A stretch of 64,000 bases of DNA from Brevibacillus humidisoli (lineage in GTDB: Bacteria; Bacillota; Bacilli; Brevibacillales; Brevibacillaceae), in NCBI RefSeq assembly GCF_020923435.1, contig NZ_CP087263.1:558001-622000 (forward strand), read 5' to 3'. Position 1 is the first letter of the stretch. Each line of letters begins with the position of its first letter. Below, piece after piece: positions 18,012-23,067 of this stretch. The notes under the pieces are model-generated. The model was not told the DNA's origin, did not search any database, and was given only the letters and a program-made list of their open reading frames with translations. The translations under genes were made by a program, and so were the position numbers.

Positions 18012-18186
18012 CGTCGTCGCTACCAAGCTCCGCACAGCGCATCAAGCACGGAATAACCCGTGGGCGGGAGATCCTCTCCACCGTTGCGCATTCTTCGGGT
18101 ACAGATCGTACAGCCAGCCTGGTTCATAACCAAAGGCGGCTGCGATCGTGTTCAACTGTCGTATGGTGATCGCGCGCAGGGGCTTC
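18012..18186 (-). pseudogene. Fragment of a fourth HTH-TPR regulator gene
   Basis: Read on the minus strand, this stretch matches the part of the neighbouring regulators from the end of the HTH through RVIPYLIRCAELG: it encodes RAITIRQLNTIAAAFGYEPG and then WLYDLY. It lacks start, body and end, and has lost one base compared with 19316-19322 (TTCGGG for TTCTGGG), which shifts the frame. It abuts the 3' end of the intact copy at 18187, so it is the remnant of a tandem duplication. Confidence 0.75.
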
Positions 18187-19536
18187 CTACCTATCTAAAA
18201 CCTTTGTCCTTGTATTCACGGTCGTCTTCGGTTCTGCCGTATTCCGACGAGCAGTAGCCAGCTGATGATTGAGCCATTCACTCAACCGGACGATATCTTC
18301 TTTGAAAAAAATCTGGCGCTCCAGCACGAGTTGCTCCAATCCAGTGGTGCATTGACCGTTTTCGATCTGATATTTGGCCAGCCAATACCGAAAACGGTAG
18401 TAACGTTCCAGATCATACGGGTTTTGTCGTTCATGAAAGTGGCTGATCTCATCGGCAAAACGGTCCAGTATGTTGTCAATGGAAAAGCCATATCTTACCG
18501 CCGATTCTACGATCACGGCCAAGCCGGCTAGCAGTTCGTTCGGATGATCTGCTAAAAAACGAACATAATCAGGGAGAACATCGGAGTTGCCCATACATAC
18601 GTGCATATAGTACGAGTTAGCAGTTGCAAAAAGTCGGAACTTGTCTACTTCTATCTGCCCGAGTTCGTCAAGTAGTTCAAACCAGCCAAGATCTGCGTAA
18701 CCGTCTATATACTGCTTGGCCTGATGGTATAGACCTTGTTGTTGTAATGCTACTGACTTTAGCAAGTACCCTTGCCCATAATAAACAACGAGATGGCGCT
18801 CCGTCTGTAGGTGTTCACTTGGCCGCTTACGCTTTTTCTTACGGAGTTCGTTTTGGTAGACCACTGTGGCTAAGTCTCTTAATTCATCCGCATATTGCTC
18901 CATTTCTTTCCACTTGCGAAGTGTAAAACAGGTATTGGCTAATTGTAAAAGCCCATCCAACCGATAACCATCTGGTAGTCGATTACGGTATGGCTCAAAC
19001 CGGATCACCGCCTTCCAGTTTTGCTCTATGTCCGTTCCCAGCGAAGCACGAAACAGACGGTACTGGCTGATCAGGTACTGGTCGGAGTGGTTGTCCTTTT
19101 CATTGTCAATCACTAGGCGGTAGAATAGTGCCGATTCCTCTCGTTTTCCCGCCTCGTATAGCTGCTCTCCTACGGAAAACAGGATGGAGACGTTCTTCGG
19201 ATTTTCCATCAGCACGGCAACAACTTGTTCGATCAAGTCGTCGCGACCAAGCTCCGCACAGCGTATCAGGTACGGTATGACCCTTGGACGGGAGATTCTT
19301 TCTACCGTTGCGCATTCTTCTGGGTACAGATCGTACAGCCAGCCCGGTTCATAGCCGAAGGCGGCCGCGATTGCGTCCAATTGTCGTATGGTGATCGCGC
19401 GCGGGGGGTTGCCATTCAGGATCTCGCTCAAGTGACCAGAGTTAATACCAGTCAATGCGCTTAGTTTGCTGAGCGAATAGCCTTTTGTTCTCATGTGTTT
19501 TTCTATCTCGGATCGAATCGCAGGTTTTATTTCCAT
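18187..19536 (-). CDS. XRE-family HTH-TPR regulator, copy 1 (RRNPPA-like)
   Basis: The protein has about 449 residues. Residues 10-65 are an XRE helix-turn-helix (LSKLSALTGINSGHLSEIL, then RAITIRQLDAIAAAFGYEPG). The rest is helical with the TPR-like periodicity of Rap/NprR/PlcR/AimR peptide receptors (for example VGEQLYEAGKREESALFYRL). The last 60 residues include VLERQIFFKEDIVRLSEWLN, similar to the Spo0E-like gene at 21144. The start is the ATG at 19536 behind GAGGATGGTAGCA, matching the paralogues; the frame opens at a TTG at 19551. No candidate peptide gene with an SD was found at its 3' end. The sensed signal and targets are unknown. Confidence 0.85.
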   Translation of the reverse strand: MEIKPAIRSEIEKHMRTKGYSLSKLSALTGINSGHLSEILNGNPPRAITIRQLDAIAAAFGYEPGWLYDLYPEECATVERISRPRVIPYLIRCAELGRDDLIEQVVAVLMENPKNVSILFSVGEQLYEAGKREESALFYRLVIDNEKDNHSDQYLISQYRLFRASLGTDIEQNWKAVIRFEPYRNRLPDGYRLDGLLQLANTCFTLRKWKEMEQYADELRDLATVVYQNELRKKKRKRPSEHLQTERHLVVYYGQGYLLKSVALQQQGLYHQAKQYIDGYADLGWFELLDELGQIEVDKFRLFATANSYYMHVCMGNSDVLPDYVRFLADHPNELLAGLAVIVESAVRYGFSIDNILDRFADEISHFHERQNPYDLERYYRFRYWLAKYQIENGQCTTGLEQLVLERQIFFKEDIVRLSEWLNHQLATARRNTAEPKTTVNTRTKVLDR

Positions 19537-19652
19537 TGCTACCATCCTCAATACCTATATGGAACAAAAACCGGGGTTGTCAGCTATTGAACTACATACA
19601 CCCCTAGAAAGCCAGAACTTTAAGCGGTTGAAGATCTCTAGCAAGATATCAT

Positions 19653-20999
19653 CTATCTAAAACTATTTGTCCGTGTATTGACGATCTTCTTTATATCTGC
19701 CACGCTTCTTTGAGTAAATGCCAACTGCTGAGTAAGCCATTCACTCAACTGCACGACATCTTCTTTAAAGAGAATCTTGCGTTCCATTACGAGTTGTTCC
19801 AATCTAGTGGTGTATTCACCTTTTTGTATCTGATATTTGGTGAGCCAATACCGAAAATGGTAGTAACGTTCACAATCAATGGGGCTTTGTCGTTCGTGAA
19901 AGTGGCTGATGTTTTCGGCAAAACGGTCTAGTATGCTGTCAATGGAAAAGCCATGTTTTACTGCCGACTCTACGATAACAGCCATGCCCGTTAGTAGTTC
20001 GTTTGGATGATCTGCCAAAAAACGAACGTAATCGGGAAGAACCTCGATGTTACCCATACAAACGTCAATGTAGTACGAGTTAGCCGTTGCCCAAAGCCGG
20101 AACTTGTTCACTTCTTTCCGGCCTACTTCGTCAAGTAGTTCAAACCACCCAAGATCAGCGTAACCGGCTATATACTGCTTGGCCAGATGATATAACCCCT
20201 GTTTCTCTAATGCTACTGACTTTATTAGATACCCTTGTCCGTAATAAACAACTAGATGGCGCTCCGTTTGTAGGGGTTCACTTTGCCTATTACGCTTTTT
20301 CTCACGTAGTTCGTTTTGGTAGACCACAGTAGCCAATTCCCTTAACTCATCAGCATACTGCTCCATGTCTTTCCATTTGTGAAGTGTGTAACAGATATTA
20401 GCCAACTGCAAAAGCCCGTCTAACCGATAGCCAACTGGTAGCCGATTACGGAAAGGCTCAAACCGGATAACTGCCTTCCAGTTCTGCTCTATGTCTGCTC
20501 CCAGTGAGGCACGAAATAGACGGTACTGGCTGATCAGGTAGTGGTCAGAGTGGTTGTCCTTCTCATTGTCAATCACCAGGCGATAGAATAGCGCAGATTC
20601 CTTTTGCTTTCCTGCCTCGTATAGCTGCTCTCCTACGGTAAACAGGATAGAAACGTTCTTTGGATTCTCCATCAATACGGGCACAACTTCCTCAATCAGG
20701 TCCTCGCGACCAAGCTCCGCACAGCGTATCAGGTACGGTATGACACGGGGACGGGAGACTCTTTCTGGCGTTGCACATTCTTCCGGATACAGTTCGTACA
20801 GCCAGCCTGGCTCATAGCCAAAGGCCGCCGCGATGGCGTCCAATTGTCGAATGGTAATTGCACGTGGGGGTTTACCGTTCAGGATCTCGCTCAAGTGACC
20901 AGAGTTAATGCCAGTCAATGTGTTTAGTTTACTAAGCGTATAGCCTTTTGCTTTCATGTGTTTTGCTATCTCGGATCGAATTGAGGGCTTTAACTCCAT
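19653..20999 (-). CDS. XRE-family HTH-TPR regulator, copy 2 (RRNPPA-like)
   Basis: About 448 residues, closely similar to copy 1 along the whole length: the same XRE HTH (LSKLNTLTGINSGHLSEIL), TPR-like helices, and C-terminal VMERKILFKEDVVQLSEWLT resembling Spo0E-type proteins. The ATG at 20999 follows AAAGGTG at eight bases; the frame opens at a GTG at 21008. It lies 116 bases upstream of copy 1 on the same strand with no obvious terminator between, so the two may be co-transcribed. A role in sporulation or stationary-phase timing is inferred from family and context. Confidence 0.85.
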   Translation of the reverse strand: MELKPSIRSEIAKHMKAKGYTLSKLNTLTGINSGHLSEILNGKPPRAITIRQLDAIAAAFGYEPGWLYELYPEECATPERVSRPRVIPYLIRCAELGREDLIEEVVPVLMENPKNVSILFTVGEQLYEAGKQKESALFYRLVIDNEKDNHSDHYLISQYRLFRASLGADIEQNWKAVIRFEPFRNRLPVGYRLDGLLQLANICYTLHKWKDMEQYADELRELATVVYQNELREKKRNRQSEPLQTERHLVVYYGQGYLIKSVALEKQGLYHLAKQYIAGYADLGWFELLDEVGRKEVNKFRLWATANSYYIDVCMGNIEVLPDYVRFLADHPNELLTGMAVIVESAVKHGFSIDSILDRFAENISHFHERQSPIDCERYYHFRYWLTKYQIQKGEYTTRLEQLVMERKILFKEDVVQLSEWLTQQLAFTQRSVADIKKIVNTRTNSFR

Positions 21000-21143
21000 C
21001 GCTATCACACCTTTCTCTGAACAGGTAAATTGTTACCATTGTGCGGACTGCTCCAACTTCGTGATTCATCGCTTGGAGGACAGATGCATCACTTAGCATA
21101 CTGATGAGAATAATGAACAGTGACTGACTATAGGTGTAAATGA

Positions 21144-21455
21144 TTATTGTCTGCTCAGATAACCTTTCCCTGTTAGGGCAGAATAATTCTGGATGACGAC
21201 AATGTACTGATCCAGCCATTGACTTAGCTTGATAACATCATCGTTTAAAAAACTTCCTCGTTCTAAAGTAAGCTGTACCAGTTGTTGACGCAATAACTCT
21301 GTAGTTTTCTGCAATTCTTCAGAGATAGAACAACAGTCTCTTTCTGACACAAATTTCGATGAAGTAATATTTAATAATTTAAAGGCACTTTCTAGTCCTT
21401 TTGAGGGTTCTTGTACGGTATGCAAAATCAAAGGAGTGCCCCTATCCACTTTCAT
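21144..21455 (-). CDS. Small Spo0E-like protein
   Basis: The protein has 103 residues. Its C-terminal half reads LVQLTLERGSFLNDDVIKL followed by SQWLDQYI, close to the Spo0E-family pattern (spaced helices with S-Q-E-L-D). Spo0E proteins dephosphorylate Spo0A~P in Bacillus. The same segment ends HTH-TPR copies 1 and 2. Expression is supported by a strong SD, GGAGGTAA, seven bases before the ATG at 21455. It lies downstream of the terminator at 21551, so it needs its own promoter. It is alternatively a C-terminal remnant of a fourth regulator that gained a start; the strong SD argues against simple decay. Confidence 0.6.
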   Translation of the reverse strand: MKVDRGTPLILHTVQEPSKGLESAFKLLNITSSKFVSERDCCSISEELQKTTELLRQQLVQLTLERGSFLNDDVIKLSQWLDQYIVVIQNYSALTGKGYLSRQ

Positions 21456-21550
21456 TTTGTAATTACCTCCTCAGTTTTGACATGTTTAGACATAAAAGAC
21501 TATAAAGGAATATACAAAAAAGGACGAATTGAGAAATATTGGATAAAGCA

Positions 21551-21578
21551 AAGCACCTCTCGAAAACGAGAGGTGCTT
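21551..21578. terminator. Perfect bidirectional terminator after the signal-peptide gene
   Basis: AAGCACCTCTCG (21551-21562) and CGAGAGGTGCTT (21567-21578) form a 12-pair perfect stem with an AAAA loop, flanked by A and T runs. It lies 16 bases beyond the stop of the small peptide gene on the minus strand and closes the receptor-peptide transcript. Confidence 0.9.
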
Positions 21579-21593
21579 TTGCGAACATTTGGC

Positions 21594-21713
21594 TTAACCG
21601 CCTGCTCCATGCCCGTATTGTACTATATGTGGTTTGTCTGGAAACTCGATCAATATTTCAATAGGATTAGCTATCCCTAGTGACAGAATCAGACAAAGCA
21701 AAATCTTTTTCAA
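21594..21713 (-). CDS. Candidate Phr/NprX-like secreted signal-peptide precursor
   Basis: This 39-codon gene overlaps the 3' end of HTH-TPR copy 3 in another frame. GAGGAG (21723-21728) lies nine bases before a TTG start at 21713. The product begins MKKILLCLILSLGIA, a short basic plus hydrophobic export signal, continues NPIEILIEFPDKP and ends HIVQYGHGAGG. Phr, NprX and PapR precursors share this plan: about 40 residues, an export signal, a C-terminal mature peptide, and a start inside or just after the receptor gene. A perfect terminator follows at 16 bases. The mature peptide probably lies in the last 5-11 residues. Too short for ordinary gene callers. The role is inferred from architecture. 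Confidence 0.7.
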   Translation of the reverse strand: MKKILLCLILSLGIANPIEILIEFPDKPHIVQYGHGAGG

Positions 21714-23067
21714 TGTCAATCACTCCTCTTATCGTGACATCTTGAAAAGTTACTTTTTGTTGATCTGTTGCATGCTGCCGATAAACCCAAAATAATGCTA
21801 CACATCTTTTAAAGCTATCATAATCCCTTGTTGCATCAGATAGATTAATACACATCACCGTATGATCTAGTCCCTCTAATATATTTCCTTTTTTTATCAA
21901 GTATACTGCAAGTTGATAGCGAAATTGTAGACGTTCACTAATTTTTATCGCATCTTGTTGTTCCTCGAAATGTTTGATATGCTCTGAAAACTGTCTCAAA
22001 ATATGGTCTACAGTGAAATTATACTGATTAGCCGATTTTATAATTGTAATCAAACCAGGAAGTATCTCTTTAGGGTTTTCGGATAGAAAGTCGATATAGT
22101 CGGGAAGAATGTCCGTTTTCCCCATCAGCATGTCTAGTGTATATCTGTTTGCAACTGCCCGCAAACGAAACTTCTCTACCTCCTTTTTTCCGATCTCATC
22201 TAGAGGTTCAAACCAGCTTAGATCGGCGTATTCCTCGACACACTGTCTTGCTTCCTCGTACCTCCCGAGATTTTCTAATGCTAAACCTTTCATTAGATAT
22301 CCTTGTCCGTAATATACTACAAGATGTCGTTCAGTATTAAGTGCTTCTCTTGCTCTTTTGCTTTTTCTTTTTCTAAGTTCATTTCTATACACCAGTGTAG
22401 ACAGTTTCTGCAATTCATTGGCGAATTTAAAAACATATTCCCATTTTTTTAAGGCATAGCAGGTGTTAGCCAACTGCAAGAGCCCATCCAACCGATACCC
22501 CTCCGGCAACCGATTGCGATACGGCTCAAATCGAATGACCGCCTTCCAGTTTTCCTCCACATCCGTCCCCAACGAAGCCCGAAACAACCGATACTGGCTG
22601 ATCAAATACCGATCCGAATGGTTGTCCTTTTCATTGTCAATCACCAACCGATAAAACAAAGTGGATTCCTTTCGCTTCCCCGCCTCATATAACTGCTCGC
22701 CTACGGCAAACAGAATAGAGACATTCTTCGGATTCTCCATCAGCACCGCTACTACCTGCTCGATCAAGTCCTTGCGCCCAAGCTCAGCACAGCGCACCAG
22801 ATACGGAATCACGCGGGGACGGGACACTCTCTCGTGGGTCGCACATTCCTCCGGATACAGTTCATACAGCCAGCCTGGTTGATAGCCAAAGGCGGCTGCG
22901 ATAGCGTCCAGTTGCCGTATCGTGATCGCACGCGGGGGATTGCCGTTGAGGATTTCACTCAGATTTCCTGAATTGATCCCGGTTAGTTCCCCTAGTTTGC
23001 TCAACGTATATCCTTTTTCCCTCAATTGTTTTTCTATCTCTGATCGAATCGTCGGTTGCATGTCCAT
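21667..23067 (-). CDS. XRE-family HTH-TPR regulator, copy 3, paired with a peptide gene (RRNPPA-like receptor)
   Basis: The protein has 466 residues. Residues 1-205 are nearly those of copies 1 and 2 (XRE HTH with LSKLGELTGINSGNLSEIL, then TPR-like helices). After about LLQLANTC it diverges steadily, and the last 70 residues are unrelated to the Spo0E-like end of the others. That is expected if the peptide-binding part has its own specificity. The DNA of the second half is clearly more AT-rich than the first. ATG at 23067 follows AGGGGGTG. The 3' end overlaps the candidate peptide gene. By analogy with NprR and AimR it should bind the re-imported peptide and change DNA binding; target promoters are unknown. 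Confidence 0.87.
   Translation of the reverse strand: MDMQPTIRSEIEKQLREKGYTLSKLGELTGINSGNLSEILNGNPPRAITIRQLDAIAAAFGYQPGWLYELYPEECATHERVSRPRVIPYLVRCAELGRKDLIEQVVAVLMENPKNVSILFAVGEQLYEAGKRKESTLFYRLVIDNEKDNHSDRYLISQYRLFRASLGTDVEENWKAVIRFEPYRNRLPEGYRLDGLLQLANTCYALKKWEYVFKFANELQKLSTLVYRNELRKRKSKRAREALNTERHLVVYYGQGYLMKGLALENLGRYEEARQCVEEYADLSWFEPLDEIGKKEVEKFRLRAVANRYTLDMLMGKTDILPDYIDFLSENPKEILPGLITIIKSANQYNFTVDHILRQFSEHIKHFEEQQDAIKISERLQFRYQLAVYLIKKGNILEGLDHTVMCINLSDATRDYDSFKRCVALFWVYRQHATDQQKVTFQDVTIRGVIDIEKDFALSDSVTRDS

Follow-up and report, generated by a model that had tools for sequence, protein, structure and literature searches.

The unannotated 39-codon open reading frame that runs over the 3' end of an HTH-TPR receptor gene in Brevibacillus humidisoli is most likely the gene of a secreted signal peptide, part of a receptor-peptide pair that tunes a sporulation brake to cell density. 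By its sequence features and those of its relatives the frame looks like a real gene, and we are confident that the pair is real and belongs to the AloR-AloP family, an assignment that is well supported. We also hold it very probable that the frame is the aloP of a chromosomal AloR-AloP-Spo0E cassette working as the Alo13 system of Paenibacillus polymyxa does, while two points taken over by analogy, GHGAGG as the mature peptide and the way in which control is exerted, seem rather likely. All positions below are those of the window, that is, the whole stretch of 64,000 nucleotides that was analysed, and the features are collected in Table 1.

Table 1. Features of the Alo locus in the window, with the evidence for each.
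Feature	Position	Strand	Description	Evidence
aloR-type receptor (copy 3)	21667-23067	(-)	466 aa, N-terminal HTH and C-terminal TPR-like helices	Pfam, AlphaFold2, homology
Ribosome-binding site	21723-21728	(-)	GAGGAG, nine bases between its end and the TTG	sequence
aloP-type propeptide gene	21594-21713	(-)	39 codons plus TAA, TTG start, product MKKILLCLILSLGIANPIEILIEFPDKPHIVQYGHGAGG	
Codons of predicted mature hexapeptide	21597-21614	(-)	GHGAGG	by analogy with AloP13 SHGRGG (PMC7425212)
Hairpin, probable intrinsic terminator	21550-21579	(-)	12-13 pairs, broken U-tract	fold and sequence
Candidate promoter element before spo0E	21499-21545	(-)	conserved: TATCCAATATTTCTCA, 25 nt, -10 TATAGT (21504-21499)	pattern search
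Spo0E-like phosphatase gene	21144-21455	(-)	103 aa, probable target	Pfam PF09388, E 4.7e-9
Receptor copy 2	19653-21008	(-)	no detected peptide gene; Spo0E-resembling C-terminal tail	protein comparison; Pfam not confirming
Receptor copy 1	18187-19551	(-)	no detected peptide gene; Spo0E-resembling tail	protein comparison; Pfam not confirming
Fragments of a further receptor copy	18013-18188	(-)	query residues 42-100, in two pieces	homology to receptor

The TTG start, the GAGGAG nine bases before it and the overlap with the regulator in another reading frame, which amounts to 47 nt, had been pointed out in the first-pass annotation and are all plain in the sequence. The frame is of the usual length (its 39 residues lie within the 32-50 aa of AloP propeptides), its product has a hydrophobic N-terminus by a hydrophobicity rule devised for this analysis, it ends in HGxGG, and its ribosome-binding site is well spaced; the receptor and Spo0E-like frames are intact too. 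Translation from another TTG of the same frame, six bases further upstream, would yield 41 aa, but this codon is no more than 3 nt away from the GAGGAG. Overlapping peptide genes of relatives (L009 at -47, L010 and L033 at -44) begin close to the start of the 39-aa product, which lies at -44. Searches of Pfam, NCBIfam and PHROGs did not recognise the 39-aa peptide.

AloR-AloP systems, in which HTH-TPR receptors are followed by propeptides of 32-50 aa, were described from species of Paenibacillus, Brevibacillus and three further genera (Voichek et al., 2020; PMC7425212). As that text presents it, AloP13 of P. polymyxa is trimmed to SHGRGG, a form inferred from mass spectrometry, and AloR13 activates the promoter of a downstream spo0E-like gene in a B. 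subtilis reporter until the peptide shuts it off. To place the window relative to this system, we can point to the published Alo13 primers, which match L138/L155, loci with an SHGRGG propeptide and a Spo0E-like gene, with 0, 0, 0 and 1 mismatches, so that L155 was taken as the Alo13 locus. Copy 3 shares 46.3% identity over 421 aa with the L155 receptor and 31.6%, with 95% covered (E 6e-67), with one encoded on a P. polymyxa ATCC 842 plasmid. Among 18 matches to codons of SHGRGG in 75 genomes of a single other genus, to which G119 belongs, four are AloP13-like propeptides, each lying between a receptor that matches copy 3 at E 1e-128 to 1e-130 and a Spo0E-like gene. Around the other 14, the 3-kb loci contain no receptor. 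Homology, gene arrangement and peptide ending together lead us to regard copy 3 as an AloR. The first-pass annotation had compared the pair with rap-phr, nprR-nprX and aimR-aimP, a list from which AloR-AloP was missing, and had found the peptide unlike any known, a judgement that does not hold for its ending beside the SHGRGG of AloP13.

The likeness to Alo13 extends over the whole locus: an HTH-TPR receptor, a short propeptide of secreted type over its 3' end, the HGxGG ending common to SHGRGG and GHGAGG, a hairpin (seen by eye in Alo13) and then a Spo0E-like gene. Even the neighbouring receptor copies without an intact peptide, copies 2 and 1 here, have a counterpart in the aloR14 of PMC7425212, as far as its text describes it. 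Unlike Alo13, the window has its own peptide sequence, a TTG start and two orphan copies with Spo0E-like tails, and the promoter element before its spo0E was not seen by eye in three Alo13-type loci. Within the genus Brevibacillus, an AloR-AloP system has been reported on a plasmid, unspecified there, of B. laterosporus LMG 15441 (Bernard et al., 2023; PMC10075063), whereas that of the window is chromosomal. Copy 3 is 56.8% and 55.0% identical to the receptors on the LMG 15441 plasmids pBRLA33 and pBRLA07, the latter followed by a Spo0E-family gene, and the propeptides at loci L027 and L053 end in QYGHGMGG and PYEHGVGG.

The first-pass annotation had proposed a search for overlapping frames after homologous receptors, and this search yielded a consistent pattern. 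Receptors were gathered from the window's relatives, from a sample of the class and from plasmid and phage records; those counted, 108 full-length and 27-29 truncated ones, are a subset retrieved from all matches, with at most five candidates per genome scored in the class sample, receptors sharing their last 120 residues counted once and those with less than 120 nt downstream left out. The filter asked for 28-60 aa, a basic start, a hydrophobic stretch, a ribosome-binding site and a start between -60 and +200 of the receptor stop. With this filter, applied identically throughout but defined after the peptides had already been inspected, 86 of 108 full-length receptors have a secreted-like small frame at their 3' end, and in 80 of 108 there is one ending in HG plus 0-4 residues. 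At control places the rate is 3-10%: 3/108 and 6/108 inside receptors, 10/102 further downstream, 8/107 on the opposite strand and 4/72 upstream, with an HG-ending frame at one receptor only when all control places are pooled. C-terminally truncated receptors passed in 1 of 27 cases, as expected if aloP and the often-overlapping end of aloR were lost together. A looser count gave 88/108 and 2/29; chance-looking frames within the receptor account for both of the latter and for one or more of the 88, L043 among them.

The frame is also conserved in its reading. In near relatives the pN/pS of the peptide frame is 0.33, or 0.34 excluding the overlap, and that of the shifted frames is 1.12 and 1.96; these are uncorrected proportions over non-independent pairs of equal length, from 10 of 12 chosen groups (two gave no data) of near relatives selected by peptide ending, with the window's own gene not among them. 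Judged by these comparisons, the sampled relatives of the frame are under purifying selection, in the peptide frame only. Frame-disrupting substitutions, which the first-pass annotation had named as a refutation, are not the pattern there; the frame is conserved. Together with the excess over the controls, this makes the frame more than a product of chance. The core proposal of the first-pass annotation, a secreted propeptide whose C-terminus is the signal and an overlapping HTH-TPR gene for the receptor, is supported by the pattern found across relatives.

The same annotation had expected the frame to accompany the receptor in close relatives, and here the result is mixed. The same-genus genome G001 (L009/L037) has the receptor, a peptide ending in TYDHGVGG, the hairpin and the Spo0E-like gene in the same order, and then an opposite-strand protein that is by eye a cobyric acid synthase. 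On the other side, the filter found no peptide frame at 22 of 108 full-length and 26 of 27 truncated receptors, and in a further same-genus genome (G002) there is no receptor at E <= 1e-20. A scan of genome contigs returned one locus and a scan of IMG/VR two. In a quick tree the window copies cluster with the same-genus copies (SH-aLRT 99; long branches flagged), nested in a mostly Brevibacillaceae group within the family.

The structure of the receptor bears on which family of the RRNPP class could be involved. Pfam recognises HTH_26 (6.1e-9) and HTH_3 (1.6e-6) in copy 3, as well as TPR_2 at 8.9e-5, a hit that falls short of Pfam's own cut-off. The AlphaFold2 model, built from seven sequences, is nearly all helix with a mean pLDDT of 87.8, and its structural comparison is topped by generic TPR proteins (LGN, Z 18.2); NprR (4gpk) follows with Z 16.4, rmsd 8.0 and 295 aligned residues, RapI (4i1a) with 15.4, RapH (3q15) with 14.6 and AimR (6jg8) with 13.5, unrelated TPR proteins scoring equal to or above these receptors. 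Foldseek against the PDB likewise gave chiefly generic TPR proteins, with PlcR (3u3w) at rank 48 among the best 50, so the fold supports a TPR architecture and no particular family. The model thus fits an RRNPP-type receptor whose family is not singled out by fold.

It could be argued, then, that the pair follows the same logic with a receptor of the Rap-Phr, NprR-NprX or AimR-AimP kind, as the shared order of receptor then propeptide and the similar TPR architecture would allow. NprR-NprX and PlcR-PapR of Bacillus have an HTH plus TPR receptor with a downstream exported propeptide, their mature peptides being unrelated to that of the window, and Rap receptors are those without a DNA-binding HTH domain, acting on Spo0F or ComA. 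The fold of copy 3 is similar to NprR and PlcR, but a PDB sequence search at E <= 0.1 returned only carbamoyl phosphate synthetase chains (E 0.013-0.014) and no NprR, Rap, PlcR or AimR chain, while the AloR13-type receptor matches at 46%; the HTH domain found by Pfam places copy 3 outside the definition of Rap. AimR-AimP of Bacillus phages, in which the peptide controls the next gene, aimX (PMC7425212), resembles our proposal, where the next gene is spo0E; it is a phage lysis-lysogeny system, whereas the window cassette adjoins what are by eye cobalamin synthesis genes, as in L037. We consider a receptor of one of these other families extremely improbable. A further reading is that the exported peptide serves some different end, for example as a small membrane peptide or an antimicrobial, and is no signal for copy 3 but only encoded next to it; the hydrophobic N-terminus, which alone fits any exported peptide, would suit this. 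This is nevertheless hard to believe when the peptide frame is tied to the receptor 3' end across Brevibacillaceae and another family with its HG-type end conserved, when it is nearly absent at C-truncated receptors and when AloP13 has been tested as a signal (PMC7425212).

The signals around the frame raise a different doubt, namely that it is a decayed, untranslated aloP, that the receptor works without it and that copies 1 and 2 are signs of cassette decay. The hairpin that follows begins 14 nt past the peptide stop, its arms are complementary over 13 bases (21579-21567 and 21562-21550), with 12 contiguous pairs in the centroid fold, and its energy of -26.8 kcal/mol (z -6.3) was equalled by 0 of 200 shuffles. 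The perfect 12-pair terminator previously described thus stands as to its pairs but not as to its distance, given as 16 bases, and its U-tract is interrupted by a G on the (-) strand; a terminator scan of the locus that needs 5 T in 8 does not list it. At the corresponding place the same-genus locus L009 has an uninterrupted run of 7 T, so that TTG start and broken U-tract are weaker signals than those found there. These traits, and the truncated or broken copies elsewhere in the genome, are what a decayed gene might show; an open frame of normal length with a hydrophobic start, an HGxGG end and a good ribosome-binding site, between intact receptor and Spo0E-like frames, speaks against decay, which we regard as very unlikely.

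The Spo0E-like gene, which the first-pass annotation did not mention, lies directly downstream of the pair, beyond the hairpin, as in Alo13-type loci. Within 900 nt, such a gene follows 60 of 108 full-length and 8 of 29 truncated receptors and was not detected after the other 48 full-length ones, by a profile built from the same downstream frames and seeded with the window's protein. Between hairpin and Spo0E-like gene, many Brevibacillaceae loci carry a block like TATTCAATTTTTCTTA at a nearly constant distance of ~25 nt before TATAGT. The pattern has one match in the window's genome, at 21545-21499. A slightly narrower pattern, one that misses the site in the window itself, gave 13 matches in 39 genomes of the family, several of them near-identical loci, and its reversed control gave 0. 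Twelve of the 13 are at loci with a Spo0E-like gene and a receptor (11) or a receptor remnant (1, L169); one (L179, G002) has neither in its 3-kb locus. A promoter scan listed no two-hexamer promoter at 21545-21499, so we read the element as an activator-dependent promoter, and it is a candidate for the AloR-dependent promoter of spo0E, at which AloR would act. The terms "operator", "binding site" and "motif" are absent from the main text of PMC7425212, and among the literature matches listed we recognised no other study on AloR promoters or on Brevibacillus Alo peptides.

If the frame is indeed the aloP of an AloR-AloP-Spo0E cassette, the gene arrangement, frame conservation and receptor and Spo0E homology come from this analysis, and the mechanism is borrowed from P. 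polymyxa Alo13, the only system for which the direction of regulation is known. By this analogy, AloP would be exported by its N-terminal signal and cleaved outside the cell, leaving a short peptide from its C-terminus that is probably GHGAGG and possibly YGHGAGG. The mature peptide would then be taken up through an oligopeptide permease (the genome has 18 genes of SBP_bac_5, a family that includes oligopeptide-binding proteins) and would bind in the TPR groove of copy 3. Peptide-free AloR would activate the spo0E promoter at 21545-21499; once bound by peptide it would let go, the level of the Spo0E phosphatase would drop and Spo0A phosphate could rise. At high cell density, sporulation or other states under Spo0A control would in this manner be entered more readily.

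The other receptor copies of the window tell of a less orderly history. Copies 1 and 2 align with copy 3 up to about residue 405 only. Compared with Spo0E-like proteins, the tails beyond that point reach 74 in copy 1 and 80 in copy 2, where shuffled sequences reach at most 52 and 50, and a separate shuffle test of these tails gave 0 of 1000 shuffles; compared with receptor C-termini they reach no more than 36 and 32. The tail of copy 3, by contrast, resembles receptor C-termini, with a score of 164, and does no better than chance against Spo0E. Support from other measures is uneven. Pfam at E <= 10 recognises no Spo0E in either tail of the two copies, and their Spo0E profile scores are 8.5 for copy 1 (shuffle maximum 5.6) and 13.5 for copy 2, barely above its 12.5. 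DNA alignments between tails and spo0E exceed codon shuffles in one of four comparisons (copy 2 against L037, 37 versus 26), the remaining three being below them (25 versus 32, 25 versus 26, 20 versus 27). The intact Spo0E-like gene has SQWLD, an instance of SQxLD, which we take to be the Spo0E motif, and the tails of the two copies have SEWLT and SEWLN.

The simplest reading of these sequences is perhaps that both copies arose by a deletion joining aloR to spo0E. If this were true, the deletion would have removed aloP, terminator and promoter at once. Having kept the HTH and the larger part of the TPR region, the two copies could bind the same promoter element, perhaps even the same peptide, while sending no signal themselves; the loss of the Asp of SQxLD would make the tail structural or inert rather than a phosphatase. 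A tentative and rather doubtful extension of this idea makes them receptor-effector chimaeras, in which aloR up to about codon 400 runs on into the 3' portion of spo0E and which would eavesdrop or compete in a dominant way with copy 3. A peptide-less copy in the same-genus MAG (L037:1245-2579) ends like the middle part of aloP, LSGSITDRRVEMIKD; this would be a different deletion-fusion and is a hint that such events recur.

Further receptor loci can be seen elsewhere. In the window's own genome, L005 (G000:C1:4602250-4606149) has a decayed receptor with internal stops followed by a frame ending in NYENGVGG, and is probably a decayed second Alo locus. A Spo0E-like gene also lies about 2 kb downstream of the peptide-less receptor L004 of the same genome (G000:C1:2278881-2278994 and 2280929-2282158, (-) strand). 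Brevibacillus phage SecTim467 (KT151957.1, L081) carries an AloR homologue, 43.8% identical by tblastn, beside an annotated Spo0E gene; no propeptide at this locus passed the filter, and an annotated 45-aa frame there has no HG ending.

The AloR-AloP family has been known since 2020, the survey that described it covers Brevibacillus (PMC7425212, as far as its text goes), and a 2026 review lists the function of AloP and AloR as still to be elucidated (PMC13220807, in the passage concerned). To this the window adds a probable cassette of aloR, aloP and a Spo0E-like gene on a Brevibacillaceae chromosome, whose hexapeptide can be predicted. The candidate promoter element opens the link between receptor and target to a direct test in a B. 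subtilis reporter of the Alo13 kind. The locus also suggests in concrete terms how receptor copies without a peptide could come about in this family: aloP may be lost along with the end of the receptor gene that it overlaps.
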